Positions 2 to 57,998 of a stretch of DNA of 64,000 nt are shown in pieces. This stretch comes from Pedobacter endophyticus. Lineage in GTDB: Bacteria > Bacteroidota > Bacteroidia > Sphingobacteriales > Sphingobacteriaceae. A model generated the notes under the pieces. It saw nothing but the letters and a program-made list of their open reading frames with translations, did no database searches and had not been told where the DNA came from. The translations under genes and the position numbers were made by a program. Where the stretch lies: contig NZ_CP064939.1 of assembly GCF_015679185.1 (NCBI RefSeq), forward strand, positions 5,270,001-5,334,000, read 5' to 3'. How positions within the stretch are numbered: the first letter of the stretch is position 1; each line of letters opens with the position of its first letter.

Positions 2-1255
2 ATAGATGCATGGCGTGTAGAGCACTCGCACCACATGAGCCCAACAAAAGGCGGTATTCGTTACAGCGAAATGGTAAACGAAGATGAGGTTATGGCCCTT
101 GCTGCGTTAATGACTTATAAATGTGCTATCGTAAACGTACCTTTTGGCGGTGCAAAAGGCGGAATCAAAATCAATACCAAACAATATAGCGTTGCCGAGT
201 TGGAAACCATTACGCGTCGTTATACCACAGAGTTAATCAAGAAAAATTTTATCGGGCCCGGCATCGATGTTCCTGCACCGGATTATGGATCGGGCGAACG
301 CGAAATGAGCTGGATTGCCGATACGTATATGACAATGAATCCCGGTCAGTTAGATGCGCTGGGTTGTGTAACGGGTAAGCCAATTGCGTTGCATGGTATC
401 CGTGGACGTAAAGAAGCCACCGGACGTGGTGTTGCTTATGCGGTTCGCGAATGTGTTGATGTAGCCGAAGATATGGCAAAAATCGGCCTTAAAGCTGGCT
501 TGGGCGATAAGAGAGTAATTGTTCAGGGATTGGGTAATGTGGGCTATCATTCTGCCAAATTTTTGGCCGAGTTCGGCGCTACCATTGTTGGTTTGTGCGA
601 ATACGAAGGTGCAATTTATAACCCTAACGGCCTTAATGTTGATGAGGTTTTTGCACACCGTAAAAATACCGGTTCGATATTGGGCTTTCCGGGTGCAACA
701 GATTTTAAAAACTCAATGGAAGGTCTGGAGCAAGACTGCGATATCATTGTACCTGCAGCTTTAGAAAACCAGTTTACCGAGCACAACATCCGCAACATTA
801 AGGCTAAAATTATTGCCGAAGGTGCCAACGGGCCAACCACACCAGAGGCTGAAACTATTTTTACGCAAATGGGCGGTATCATTATCCCCGATATGTATTG
901 CAACGCAGGTGGTGTAACTGTTTCGTATTTTGAGTGGTTAAAAAACCTTTCGCATGTGGCTTTTGGCCGTATGGAGAACCGTTATGCAGCCAACTCGAAC
1001 GCAAACTTAATTGCTACACTCGAAAATTTAACGGGTAAAACCATTCTTCCTGAGCACCGTTTAATGATTGTTAAAGGCGCCTCGGAAATGGAACTGGTAA
1101 ACTCTGGGTTGGAAGATACAATGATCCATTCTTATCACGAAATTCGTGAAACGAGAATGACCAAGCCAGCAACCGAAACATTAAGAACGGCTGCTTTTGT
1201 AAACTCGATCGATAAAATTGCTGTTTCGTATATGAATTTAGGCGTGTGGCCTTAA
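2..1255 (+). CDS. gdhA: Glu/Leu/Phe/Val (glutamate) dehydrogenase, 5'-truncated by window edge
   Basis: Catalyses reversible oxidative deamination of glutamate to 2-oxoglutarate and ammonia in the cytoplasm. The reading frame is open from base 2, so the gene begins before the window; 417 codons are visible. The substrate-binding segment with PTKGGIR and [10 protein letters not shown] is present, followed by PAPDYGSG and the Rossmann nucleotide-binding motif GLGNVG near the middle. The C-terminus is complete and ends at a TAA just before the satellite array. Family membership is clear. The cofactor (NAD or NADP) cannot be decided from the sequence alone, and a branched-chain amino acid dehydrogenase is less likely given the length and the PTKGGIR motif. 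Confidence 0.93.
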
Positions 1256-1264
1256 TCCACTGCC

Positions 1265-2800
1265 GTCATTGCGAGTCCCGATTTTCATCGGGATGTGGCA
1301 ATCTTTTTAAAAAAATCCCTGCAGATATATCATTTGCAGGGATTTTTTGTACTATTTGTTTCCGTTTGCAATTAAAGAAGTCAAGTTTTTAAAACTTGAC
1401 TTCTCTGTAACACTGTTAATTTTTCGTCTGCCATGACGATAGTCCGGTTAAACACATCCGTCATTGCGAATCTCGATTTTTCATCGGGATGTGGCAATCT
1501 TATTAAAAAAAAATCCCTACAGATGTATAATTTGCAGGGGGTTTTTTTGCTATTTGTTTCCGTTTGCAACTGGAGAAGTCAAGTTTTAAAAACTTGACTT
1601 CTCTGTAAGGGCCGTTAATTTTTCGTCTGCCATTACGATAGTCCGGTTAAACACTGCCGTCATTGCGAATCCCGATTTTTCATCGAGATGTGGCAATCTT
1701 ATTAAAAAAGTCCTTGCATGTCTATAATTTGCAGGGATTTTTTGTGCTATTTGTTTCCGTTTGCAATTAGAGAAGTCAAGTTTTAAAAACTTGACTTCTC
1801 TGTAAGGGCCGTTAATCTTTCGTCTGCCATTACGATAGTCCGGTTAAACACATCCGTCATTGCGAATCCCGATTTTTCATCGGGATGTGGCAATCTTATT
1901 AAAAGAAATCCCTGCAGATGTATCATTTGCAGGGATTTTTTGTACTGCTTGTTTCGGTTTGCAATTAGAGAAGTCAAGTTTTAAAAACTTGACTTCTCTG
2001 TAAGGGCCGTTAATTTTTCTTCTGCCATTACGATAGTCCGGTTAAACACATCCGTCATTGCGAATCTCGATTTTTCATTGAGATGTGGCAATCTTATTAA
2101 AAAAGTCCTTGCATGTCTATAATTTTCGGGGGTTTTTTATGCTATTTGCTTCCGTTTGCAACTGGAGAAGTCAAGTTTTAAAAACTTGACTTCTCTGTAA
2201 GGGCCGTTAATTTTTCGTCTGCCATTACGATAGTCCGGTTAAACACATCCGTCATTGCGAATCCCGATTTTTCATCGGGATGTGGCAATCTTATTAAAAA
2301 AGTCCTTGCATGTCTATAATTTGCAGGGATTTTTTGTGCTATTTGTTTCCGTTTGCAATTAGAGAAGTCAAGTTTTTAAAACTTGACTTCTCTGTAACAC
2401 TGTTAATTTTTCGTCTGCCATTACGATAGTCCGGTTAAACACATCCGTCATTGCGAGTCCCGATTTTTCATCGAGATGTGGCAATCTTTTAAAAGAAATC
2501 CCTGCAGATGTATCATTTGCAGGGTTTTTTTGTACTGCTTGTTTCGGTTTGCAATTAGAGAAGTCAAGTTTTAAAAACTTGACTTCTCTGTAAGGGCCGT
2601 TAATTTTTCATCTGCCATTACGATAGTCCGGTTAAACACTGCCGTCATTGCGAATCCCGATTTTTCATCGGATGTGGCAATCTTTTTAAAAAAATCCCTG
2701 CAGATGTATAATTTTCGGGGGTTTTTTTGCTATTTGTTTCCGTTTGCAACTGGGGAAGTCAAGTTTTAAAAAACTTGACTTCTCTGTAAGGGCGTTAGTT
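1265..2800. repeat. Tandem satellite: eight ~197-bp units, each with three hairpins
   Basis: The word GTCATTGCGA recurs at 1265, 1460, 1659, 1856, 2054, 2251, 2447 and 2644, giving periods of 195-199 bp; the eighth unit is shorter. Each unit carries hairpin 1 (ATCCCGAT/ATCGGGAT inside ATTGC/GCAAT), hairpin 2 (TCCCTGCA/TGCAGGGA followed by a T run, terminator-like) and hairpin 3 (AGAAGTCAAGTTTT and its complement, almost perfect). Units differ by scattered substitutions and two variants of the hairpin-2 left arm. The first hairpin 2 (about 1309-1348) could terminate gdhA. No convincing coding potential; the period is not a multiple of three. Confidence 0.95.
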
Positions 2801-3058
2801 TATTAAGCCAAAACAGCATGACGGTATATTTAATGAAAGATGACCGCCCCTTCGAGCCTGAAAATGAGCCTCTCGGCTTGAGCTTGTATCGAGTGTAGTC
2901 GAAACGCTACGACGATGTAAGGGCATAGGAAGACTAGTGAACAATTGAACTTCGGACTTCGGACTTTTCGACTCCAGACTTTCGGGCTTCCACTATCAGC
3001 TAATTGTCAATATAAAGACAAGAAAAATGTAAATGAATGTTCACTATGGCTATTTTTC
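2801..3058. other. Non-coding mosaic of dispersed repeat fragments
   Basis: Contains a fragment of the family built around GTCGAAA and CTTGAGCTTG (2875-2910) and a run of CTTCGGA-like words (2947-2995) that recurs in other intergenic regions of the window. No gene is visible. Confidence 0.6.
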
Positions 3059-3093: not shown

Positions 3094-3528
3094 ATGAAAA
3101 AAAGTGCAATAATTGGTCTGATAACCATTGCTATTTCTGTGGGAATCTTATTTAGCTTAAATGCAAATACAGACACTTATTCAAATTTTAAGGAAGCCGC
3201 TGCTTCGCAAAAAGAAGAGCATGTAATGGGTTACTGGGAAAAATCGCAAGGAACTTATTACGATGCAGTAAAAGACCCTAATCACTTTTCTTTCCACATG
3301 AAAGATGAAAAAGGGGAGATCCGCGAAGTTGTTTACTCAGGCACAAAGCCTCAAGATTTCGAAAAATCGGAAAAGCTTGTGCTGATAGGCAAAATGGATC
3401 AGGACAAGTTCTACGCCTCAAAAATCTTAATGAAATGCCCTTCAAAATATAATGATAACCTCGTCGAAATTAACAAAGATGGTAAAGTGGACGAAGTAGG
3501 TAAGTACGGCGAGAAAAAATATAACTAA
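3094..3528 (+). CDS. ccmE: Cytochrome c maturation heme chaperone CcmE, Cys-type (CxxxY)
   Basis: Periplasmic, membrane-anchored heme chaperone that carries heme to the CcmF lyase. The 144-residue protein has one N-terminal membrane anchor (residues about 4-22) and an OB-fold-sized periplasmic domain. In the classical family heme binds a His in an HxxxY motif; here the equivalent site reads C115-P-S-K-Y119, the CxxxY variant known from some other bacteria and archaea. The ATG at 3094 is preferred over 3037 because it starts the anchor directly and follows a -7 promoter element. It is four bases upstream of ccmF and surely co-transcribed with it. Confidence 0.9.
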   Translation: MKKSAIIGLITIAISVGILFSLNANTDTYSNFKEAAASQKEEHVMGYWEKSQGTYYDAVKDPNHFSFHMKDEKGEIREVVYSGTKPQDFEKSEKLVLIGKMDQDKFYASKILMKCPSKYNDNLVEINKDGKVDEVGKYGEKKYN

Positions 3529-17886: not shown

Positions 17887-18125
17887 TGTCATCCGATAGC
17901 TATCGGATCTGAGCGGAGTCGAAAGACAATTCGCAATAAACAATGACCAATTAACCAGTTGTCATCCTGAGCGGAGTCGAAGGACAATTCGCAATAACCA
18001 ATAACCAATTAACCAACCAATTGTCATCCTGAGCGGAGTCGAAGGACAATTCGCAATAACCAATGACCAGTGACTCATTAACCAATTGTCATCCTGAGCG
18101 GAGTCGAAGGACAATTCGCAATGAC
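17887..18125. repeat. Tandem repeat of 62-73 bp, four copies, with palindromic insertion in the first
   Basis: Four units start with TTGTCATC at 17887, 17960, 18022 and 18086, each reading GTCATCCTGAGCGGAGTCGA, then GGACAATTCGCAAT and short CCAATTAACC-type words. ATTGTC and GACAAT at the unit ends can pair. The first unit has 15 extra bases forming a palindrome (17891-17908). The array fills the gap between the convergent ferredoxin and uspA genes. Confidence 0.85.
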
Positions 18126-18156
18126 CAATGAACTAATGAACTAATGAGCCAGCGAA

Positions 18157-49252: not shown

Positions 49253-49812
49253 GATGCGCCAAAGGTAAGTAAACGCAATAGAAGTGGAAAGATGCGATGT
49301 AGAGAATTTTGAGGATATTGGGATTCTGGTCAGAGACCCACTTTAAAAGACCTCTCCGCTGCGGTCGAGATGACGGCTGCGGATGAGATGACGACCTGAT
49401 GTATAAAAAAAGCAAACCAATTTTGGATTGCTTTTGGCTCCGTCAGTTGAAACTGAAGGTAATGGTTTGATAGCGATTTGATGATAGGCATTTGCAATTC
49501 ATTGCCGTTGACTTCAGTCAACGGTTAAAGAAGGTAAAGAGCGAGTTAAAAAGATCTCTCCGCTGCGGTCGAGATGACGGTTGCGATTGAGAATAATTCC
49601 TAAAAAAAACATCCTAATTATGGATTGCTTTTGGCTCCGTCAGTTGAAACTGACGGTAATGGTTTGATAGCGATTTGATGATAGGCATTTGCAATTCATT
49701 GCCGTTGACTTCAGTCAACGGTTGAAGAAGGTAAAGAACCAGTTTAAAAGATCTCTCCGCTGCGGTCGAGATGACTTAGCTAGCAGCCGATGACGACATT
49801 GTAAAAGAAAAG

Positions 49813-50339: not shown

Positions 50340-51101
50340 AATGATGTGTTATACTCAAATTTACATAAATAGAATGTTATAAGCAAATTGCTGTTTTTCC
50401 TTTCCAAAATAAAAAAGCAACCCTATTGTGGATTGCTTTTGGCTTCATCAGTTGAAACTGACGGTAATGATTTGATAATAGATATTTTGCAATTCATTGC
50501 CGTCAACGGTTGAAGAAGGTAAAGAGCGAGTTAAAAAGATCTCTCCGCTGCGGTCGAGATGACGGCTGCGGTCGAGATGACGATTAATTCATGAAAAAAA
50601 GCAACCCAATTTTGGATTGCTTTTGGCTCCGTCAGTTGAAACTGACGGCAATGATTTGATGATAGATATTTTGCACTTCATTGCCGTTGACTTCAGTCAA
50701 CGGTTGAAGAAGGTAAAGAACCAGTTTAAAAGATCTCTCCGCTGCGGTCGAGATGACGACTGCGGATGAGATGACGACTTGATGTATAAAAAAAGCAACC
50801 CAATTATGGATTGTTTTTGGCTCCGTCAGTTGAAACTGACGGTAATGGTTTGATAGCGATTTGATGATAGATACTTTGCACTTCACTGCCGTTGACTTCA
50901 GTCAACGGTTGAAGAAGGTAAAGAGCGAGTTAAAAAGATCTCTCCGCTGCGGCCGAGATGAGGGCTGCGGATGAGATGACGACTTGATGTATAAAAAAAA
51001 GCAACCCAATTTTGGATTGCTTTTTAAAGGCTTTTTGATGATAGATATTTTGCACTCCATTGCCGTTGACTTCAGTCAACGGTTTGCGGCGAGAAGGCGT
51101 T

Positions 51102-57361: not shown

Positions 57362-57998
57362 CCGTCATATCGAAAAGCGATCCTTTAGTACTTAGCAAAC
57401 AGATTTCTCCGCTACGGTCGAAATGACGGGAAAATGAAGGGCAGCAGTACTTAGCAAATAGATTTCTCCGCCACGGTCGAAATGACGGGAAAATGAAGGG
57501 CGGCAGTACTTAGCAAACAGATTTCTCCGCTACGGTCGAAATGACGGGAAAATGAAGGGCAGCAGTACTTAGCAAACAGATTTCTCCGCTACGGTCGAAA
57601 TGACGGGAAAATGAAGGGCAGCAGTACTTAGCAAACAGATTTCTCCGCTACGGTCGAAATGACGGGAAAATGAAGGGTAGCAGTACTTCGCAAACAGATT
57701 TCTCGGCTGCGCTCGAAATGACGGGAAAATGAAGGGCAGCAGTACTTAGCAAACAGATTTCTCGGCTGCGCTCGAAATGACGGGAAAATGAAGGGCAGCA
57801 GTACCTAGCAAACAGATTTCTCGGCTGCGCTCGAAATGACGGGAAATGAAGGGCAGCAGTACTTAGCAAACAGATTTCTCCGCTACGGTCGAAATGACGT
57901 GAAAATGAAGGGTAGCAGTACTTAGCAAACAGATTTTCTCGGCTGCGCTCGAAATGATGGATTATAAATACACCGTCATATTGAAAAGCGATCCTTCA
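57362..57998. repeat. 59-bp tandem array, ten units, flanked by a direct repeat
   Basis: AGTA begins units at 57387, 57446, 57505, 57564, 57623, 57682, 57741, 57800, 57858 and 57917: period 59, once 58. Units read AGTACTTAGCAAACAGATTT, then CTCCGCTACGGTCGAAATGA and CGGGAAAATGAAGGGCAGC, with one variant block (GGCTGCGCTC for CGCTACGGTC) in four of the ten. A segment reading CGTCAT.TTGAAAAGCGATCC-like sequence flanks the array on both sides (57363 and 57972). The core CTCCGCT.CGGTCGA.ATGACG also occurs in the array at 49352-51085. Confidence 0.95.

Follow-up and report, generated by a model that had tools for sequence, protein, structure and literature searches.

A tandem array behind gdhA in a Pedobacter genome, probably amplified from the terminator region of the gene

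The glutamate dehydrogenase gene gdhA of the Pedobacter genome studied here is adjoined directly downstream by a tandem array of eight head-to-tail units. The array very probably arose when the gdhA 3' untranslated region, including the predicted terminator of the gene, was amplified in tandem specifically in this lineage. Each unit is composed of a CGTC-tagged, REP-like element (A), the terminator hairpin (B), a 33-bp near-perfect palindrome (hairpin C, hereafter P1) and spacer sequence. A and B are homologous to sequences in the gdhA 3' region of relatives, and P1 is dispersed through the genome.

Composition of the array and the gdhA terminator

The window, the whole stretch of DNA analysed, comprises 64,000 nucleotides (bases 5,270,001-5,334,000) of a single-contig 5.43 Mb genome. 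The PF02812 match of gdhA begins at profile position 33 in a profile search, and the gene shares 90-99% identity with its 80 best relatives, almost all of which are named Pedobacter. TRF reports a repeat at 1263-2801 with a period of 197, 7.8 copies, 89% matches and a score of 2452. Together with the unit alignment, this bears out an earlier note on this DNA, which had described eight copies with a period of 195-199 bases beside gdhA. The units start at 1263, 1458, 1657, 1854, 2052, 2249, 2445 and 2642, corresponding to spacings of 195, 199, 197, 198, 197, 196 and 197, and unit 8 is cut at about 160 bp. Any two units are 6-26 substitutions apart, an argument against an assembly artefact. A coding repeat was excluded, as the array contains no ORF of at least 80 aa. 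Promoter-like sites number 10 against 4.7 expected; one lies outside the array, and the others all coincide with two AT-rich places in the unit.

The three hairpins previously noticed in each unit were confirmed. Most pair cells are intact across the units: 40/40 in the outer helix of A, 60/62 in its inner helix, 99/104 in B and 111/112 in P1.

Table 1. Features of the gdhA locus, in window coordinates.
Feature	Position	Strand	Basis and remarks
gdhA (glutamate dehydrogenase)	35..1255	+	ORF; PF00208, PF02812; 5' end lost at window edge
Tandem array, eight units of 195-199 bp	1258..2801	+	TRF, unit split, alignment
Element A, unit 1	1263..1305	+	Outer stem ATTGC/GCAAT, inner stem ATCCCGAT/ATCGGGAT; present in every unit
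Hairpin B, unit 1 (predicted terminator)	1310..1348	+	17-bp stem, T run; terminator scan, folding, homologous hairpin in relatives; in every unit
P1, unit 1	1374..1406		Pattern match, pairing
P1, unit 2	1572..1604		Pattern match
P1, unit 3	1769..1801		Pattern match
P1, unit 4	1967..1999		Pattern match
Hairpin B, unit 5, pairing lost	2097..2141	+	Folding: -6.7 kcal/mol, z -1.34
P1, unit 5	2164..2196		Pattern match
P1, unit 6	2361..2393		Pattern match
P1, unit 7	2557..2589		Pattern match
P1, unit 8	2754..2787		Loop one base longer, hence missed by pattern
ccmE, next downstream gene, then ccmF	3097..3528	+	ORF and profile search

Hairpin B has a stem containing G-C pairs and a T run, follows the gene and is conserved in position. 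Comparison with relatives supports it as the predicted intrinsic terminator of gdhA itself. A T-run hairpin lies no more than 220 nt past the gdhA stop in 71 of the 80 relatives, compared with 2 of 400 control windows within gdhA. The arm CC[C/T]TGCA is common to 32 of the 80 at this hairpin, and pairing is preserved in example forms from relatives (CCTTGCAG/TTGCAAGG, GCGTTGTAGA/TCTGCAACGC and ACCTTACAG/CTGTAAGGT). The folding energy of B is -22.5 kcal/mol in unit 1, -24.7 in unit 4 and -20.5 in unit 7, and ranges from -15.5 to -17.0 kcal/mol in units 2, 3, 6 and 8. The loss of pairing that had been noted in the unit at about 2105-2135 is evident in the folding energy of B in unit 5 (Table 1), which contrasts with the values of units 1-4 and 6-8, between -15.5 and -24.7. 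The wobble pairs described in B are also present, as GU at columns 56/84 and UG at columns 60/80, in units 3, 5 and 6. A simple terminator scan, however, rates only two of the eight B hairpins as terminator-like, against 1.7 expected by shuffling.

Element A (CCGTCATTGCGA...GCAATCTT) opens with CGTC as an unpaired end tag in all eight units. It contains a 5-bp outer stem, an 8-bp inner stem with a 5-base loop, and the tail CTT. A does not show the combination of one 8-9 bp stem that begins with AT, a loop of 4-5 bases and a tail near CCA. Because stem and tail deviate in this way, we refer to it as CGTC-tagged REP-like and leave it outside the four published families. The CGTC REPs described in parts of PMC3733652 share with A the CGTC start and the following AT of the stem, but have one stem of 8-9 bp, a loop of 4-5 bases and a CCA end, where A has two stems and ends in CTT. 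The same parts name Bacteroidetes as one of five phyla that contain CGTC REPs, state that these have no dedicated transposase, and call CGTC clusters rare outside Neisseria and Wolbachia, whereas in this genome they are recurrent in arrays.

The CGTC motif class is real in this genome, with 54 matches in 83 kb of array-free intergenic sequence against 4 for a control motif. Fragments of A occur at five further places. Between the gdhA stop and the terminator, a strict pattern finds A in four of the 80 relatives (L052, L062, L076 and L084), and diverged forms were recognized by eye in seven more (L065, L066, L067, L074, L087, L088 and L090), four of which carry an altered tag (L066, L067, L087 and L090).

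We propose that the ancestral gdhA 3' region carried terminator B, in some lineages with element A before it. The dispersed palindrome P1 would then have been gained beside gdhA in this lineage, after which the composite of A, B, P1 and spacer would have been duplicated in tandem up to eight copies. The first duplication was probably due to slippage or template switching at the hairpins, with unequal exchange acting later. In the resulting array, the unit 1 terminator would end gdhA transcription, and the other units would act as drifting back-up terminators and as an insulating spacer before ccmE. Being located after unit 1, units 2-8 can only catch read-through, which is consistent with their drift, and they are probably redundant. 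The most similar units are those three apart, with a mean difference of 5.9% compared with 9.4% for neighbours (permutation p 0.0099, uncorrected for seven lags), which suggests a late duplication of a three-unit block.

A search for the unit in related genomes, as the earlier note had recommended, matched no more than part of it in any of 144 other Pedobacter genomes. The best match is an 85-bp stretch of the A-B part in G156; this genome and L062 read alike after gdhA and are hence not independent, as the G and L handles overlap. No ancestral array was seen at the gdhA loci of the 80 best relatives, five of which extend less than 4 kb downstream (two of these five only about 300 bp), nor at ten additional gdhA loci, most of which read like the 80 again. 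One relative (L106) has a different, 32-bp repeat directly after gdhA. We found no one-unit intermediate with P1 beside gdhA in relatives, and no source for the rest of the unit (about 75 bp lying on both sides of P1).

Dispersal of P1 at gene ends

P1 is located at 35 further sites of this genome, with equally short boundaries and mostly at gene 3' ends. This number corresponds to 43 forward matches minus seven in the array and one weak site with three mismatches (3889342). Based on crude ORFs of at least 90 aa, 15 sites lie between convergent genes, 17 between co-directional and 2 between divergent genes, and one is within a 103-aa ORF. As background, 464 kb of this genome contain 48 convergent, 161 co-directional and 53 divergent gaps. 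Convergent gaps are enriched (15/34 sites compared with 48/262 gaps, p = 0.001), and the deficit of divergent ones has p = 0.058. The terminator role suggested by the earlier note is upheld for B by homology in 71 of 80 relatives; for P1 such a role is likely, given the convergent enrichment and the different terminator-like hairpins that other species have at one such place.

The arms of dispersed P1 covary. In 25 distinct rows (10 of the 35 copies are identical to others and were counted once), 23 cells are changed on both sides, compared with 9.2 in shuffles and with none of 500 shuffles as high, a count that kinship among the copies can raise. The signal derives mainly from pairs 2/32 (AU or GC) and 13/21 (UA or CG), and further pair types are not in excess (8 compared with 9.0 in shuffles). 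The P1 core belonged to the search pattern, so pairing is favoured there; the outer four pairs lie outside the pattern.

The GTAG tag is absent from the 35 aligned copies, which places P1 apart from the GTAG REPs associated with RAYTs. As far as literature searches show, P1 is an unnamed, untagged family. A search on its sequence found nothing related, no such array is among the titles listed for palindromic tandem intergenic repeats or REPs in Pedobacter, and the word Pedobacter is absent from the main text of the REP survey PMC12306157.

Allowing up to two mismatches, P1 was found in 29 of 145 Pedobacter genomes, including the one studied here. In an order-wide draw with up to one mismatch, it was present in 22 of 94 genomes of the same genus and in none of 156 from other genera of the family. 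Among 19 orthologous loci read for one convergent gene pair (L164), only that of G065 retains P1, with a pair change that is compensated; many of the loci without P1 have a different T-run hairpin there. At three other sites, the 170 nt examined in the matching genomes showed no P1 (8, 7 and 8 of 8), and several of these relatives instead carry a terminator-like hairpin of unrelated sequence or a different REP-like element. Since other terminator-like hairpins often occupy the orthologous sites, P1 appears to stand in for a terminator. The intergenic DNA of relatives does not align at orthologous P1 sites.

It is possible, though short of probable, that P1 represents a terminator cassette that is mobile or spreads by copying, an untagged REP-like element moved in trans by a RAYT or another transposase, with the array as a by-product. 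The recurrence of one 33-bp element at numerous loci whose flanks are mostly unrelated argues for this reading: 12 of 595 pairs of sites have some similarity within 150 bp, and in a single pair (L013 and L022) the flanks are similar at equal offset beside P1. So do the uneven copy number, which ranges from 1 to 58 across the 29 P1-bearing genomes, its absence from the 170 nt examined in matching genomes at three of the four sites tested, and the complete lack of P1, at up to two mismatches, in four of the eight matching genomes (G156, G164, G107 and G097). However, P1 is missing among the palindromes near all nine Y1-type transposase loci inspected (two in this genome, three of five in G005 and four in other genomes), so that no RAYT link of P1 was found at these loci. 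The RAYT-type gene of this genome is instead adjoined by a different palindrome family, CCGTTGGTTTCAACCAACGG. At L186 1772-2900 (G000:C1:3738771 region), a RAYT-type gene lies beside a degenerate array of CCGTTGGTTTCAACCAACGG-type palindromes, possibly a REPtron of the Pedobacter studied here.

Arrays containing P1

Nine arrays with one P1 per unit are found in four Pedobacter genomes: the gdhA array, six arrays in G005, a 3.9-Mb Pedobacter genome, and one each in G065 and G092. The G005 arrays contain 12, 7, 8, 8, 8+4 and 5 copies of P1, with periods of about 95, 114-137, 123, 141, 144 and 153/356. Three weak P1 matches distant from arrays were excluded from the copy counts. In G065 four P1 copies are spaced by 124 bp, and in G092 three are spaced by 160. 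Contigs C23 and C4 of G005 are alike in opposite orientation (94% over 481 bases), suggesting that their arrays are one array split over two contig ends. Masking P1 leaves similarity in just one of the 45 pairs formed by the ten array regions, namely that of the split array; without masking, all 45 match. The nine arrays in four species therefore have only P1 in common. Four of the G005 arrays (L130, L132, L133 and L136, of the set L130-L137) start 28-67 bp past the end of the left-hand ORF.

These arrays raise a somewhat doubtful alternative, in which P1, and REP-like palindromes generally, actively nucleate tandem amplification of host DNA, with the gdhA array as one case; polymerase pausing induced by the hairpin, slippage or nicking by a nuclease are examples of how this could occur. 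It would account for nine arrays that have one P1 per unit and are otherwise unrelated in sequence. A second observation in its favour comes from the 13 tandem arrays with a period of at least 40 in 464 kb of this genome: CGTC elements are present in the first unit of five of them, compared with 1.4 expected from matched intergenic DNA (17/2000 draws). However, three of these five arrays lie in the window that had drawn attention, leaving two of eight in 20 evenly spaced stretches, and in eight of the 13 sampled arrays the first unit lacks the CGTC motif. Only four of the 13 contain perfect palindromes whose arms measure at least 8 (1.3 expected, 12/300 draws as high). According to TRF, 35 of the 36 P1 loci of this genome are outside tandem arrays, indicating that P1 alone is not sufficient, and P1-free arrays are under-counted since the arrays were located through a P1 search. 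The specific proposal that P1 acts in cis as a seed of tandem duplication, so that this untagged, terminator-like Pedobacter palindrome repeatedly turns unrelated neighbouring DNA into arrays with one P1 per unit, is doubtful. P1 may mark places where arrays start.

Several other arrays also contain REP-like elements. A second composite array in the window, at 49334-49775 and 50411-51024, has units of 194-197 bp with a CGTC-tagged element, and its palindromes CCGTCAGTTGAAACTGACGG and CCGTTGACTTCAGTCAACGG resemble those beside the RAYT-type gene. A 59-bp unit with a CGTC-tagged REP-like element (CGTCATTTCGACCGTAGCGGAGAAATC) is present in 9.7 copies at 57387-57957, and a 62-bp repeat at 17909-18141 contains a TGTC-type element (TGTCATCCTGAGCGGAGTCGAAGGA). 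At L198 14918-15833, a 373-bp unit with CGTC-tagged elements is repeated in 2.5 copies.

Pairing inside the array and relation to known repeats

It had been suggested that some left-arm changes in the second hairpin keep the pairing, and that the array looks like a structured satellite, perhaps acting at the RNA level. The count of compensatory changes over the eight units, called for at the time, gave no excess over shuffles: 1 of 40 pairs is changed on both sides, in one cell, compared with 0.6 expected, and 322 of 500 shuffles reach as much. Paired cells make up 97.5% against a shuffled mean of 97.4%. The arms of B vary like the spacer (8/26 compared with 18/79 variable columns, p 0.44), and those of P1 somewhat less (3/28, p 0.27). 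Nothing was found in support of a small-RNA source, and no Rfam family reaches its gathering score in the array. A set of 46 weak RNA-family matches was rejected, as they fall below the family cut-offs and are scattered over unrelated sRNA, cis-regulatory and microRNA families. A structured RNA satellite under selection, whether as stacked terminators needed together or as a source of small RNAs, is thus very improbable: seven of eight B hairpins do fold stably, and intact pair cells far exceed the at most 54.7% of slid versions, with the structure read from the same units, but paired cells and both-side changes show no excess over shuffles, Rfam gives no support and the array was found in only one of 145 Pedobacter genomes searched.

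The best reading of the gdhA array is a REP-type tandem cluster, of a known kind, that arose by amplification of a terminator region. The GTAG section of PMC3733652 describes large clusters that are tandemly reiterated with flanking DNA, which is why we class the gdhA array with this kind; the article, in the parts considered here, places both GTAG and CGTC REPs at gene ends. Passages of PMC3116915 describe tandem REPINs that include flanking sequence and mention a second mechanism for cluster formation. The gdhA array resembles the REP clusters and BIME-like arrays of these passages in having gene-end palindromes in tandem with flanks of variable length. Its palindromes are dispersed elsewhere (P1 at the 35 further sites, A as fragments), its 195-199 bp units and those of the nine P1 arrays as a whole repeat head to tail with flanking DNA, and P1 is intergenic and mostly at gene 3' ends. 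Unlike REP and BIME arrays, the gdhA unit contains three dissimilar palindromes, one of which is the predicted terminator of the host gene, and P1 lacks both the GTAG and the CGTC tag; no RAYT was found next to it.

P1 can also be compared with uptake signals, which parts of PMC1852404 describe as repeated within terminators in Neisseria and Pasteurellaceae. In both cases one conserved inverted-pair sequence forms a hairpin at many gene ends. P1 reaches at most 58 copies per genome, whereas uptake signals are generally said to number at least 1,000.

The gdhA array provides a case of a gene's own predicted terminator being swept into a repeat. It also cautions that, within a young array, variation that looks paired does not by itself speak for selection on RNA. 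Nine arrays with different flanking DNA and one common palindrome constitute a natural experiment on the tandem growth of REP-type clusters, in which the shared palindrome is a common factor for the comparison of duplication rates.
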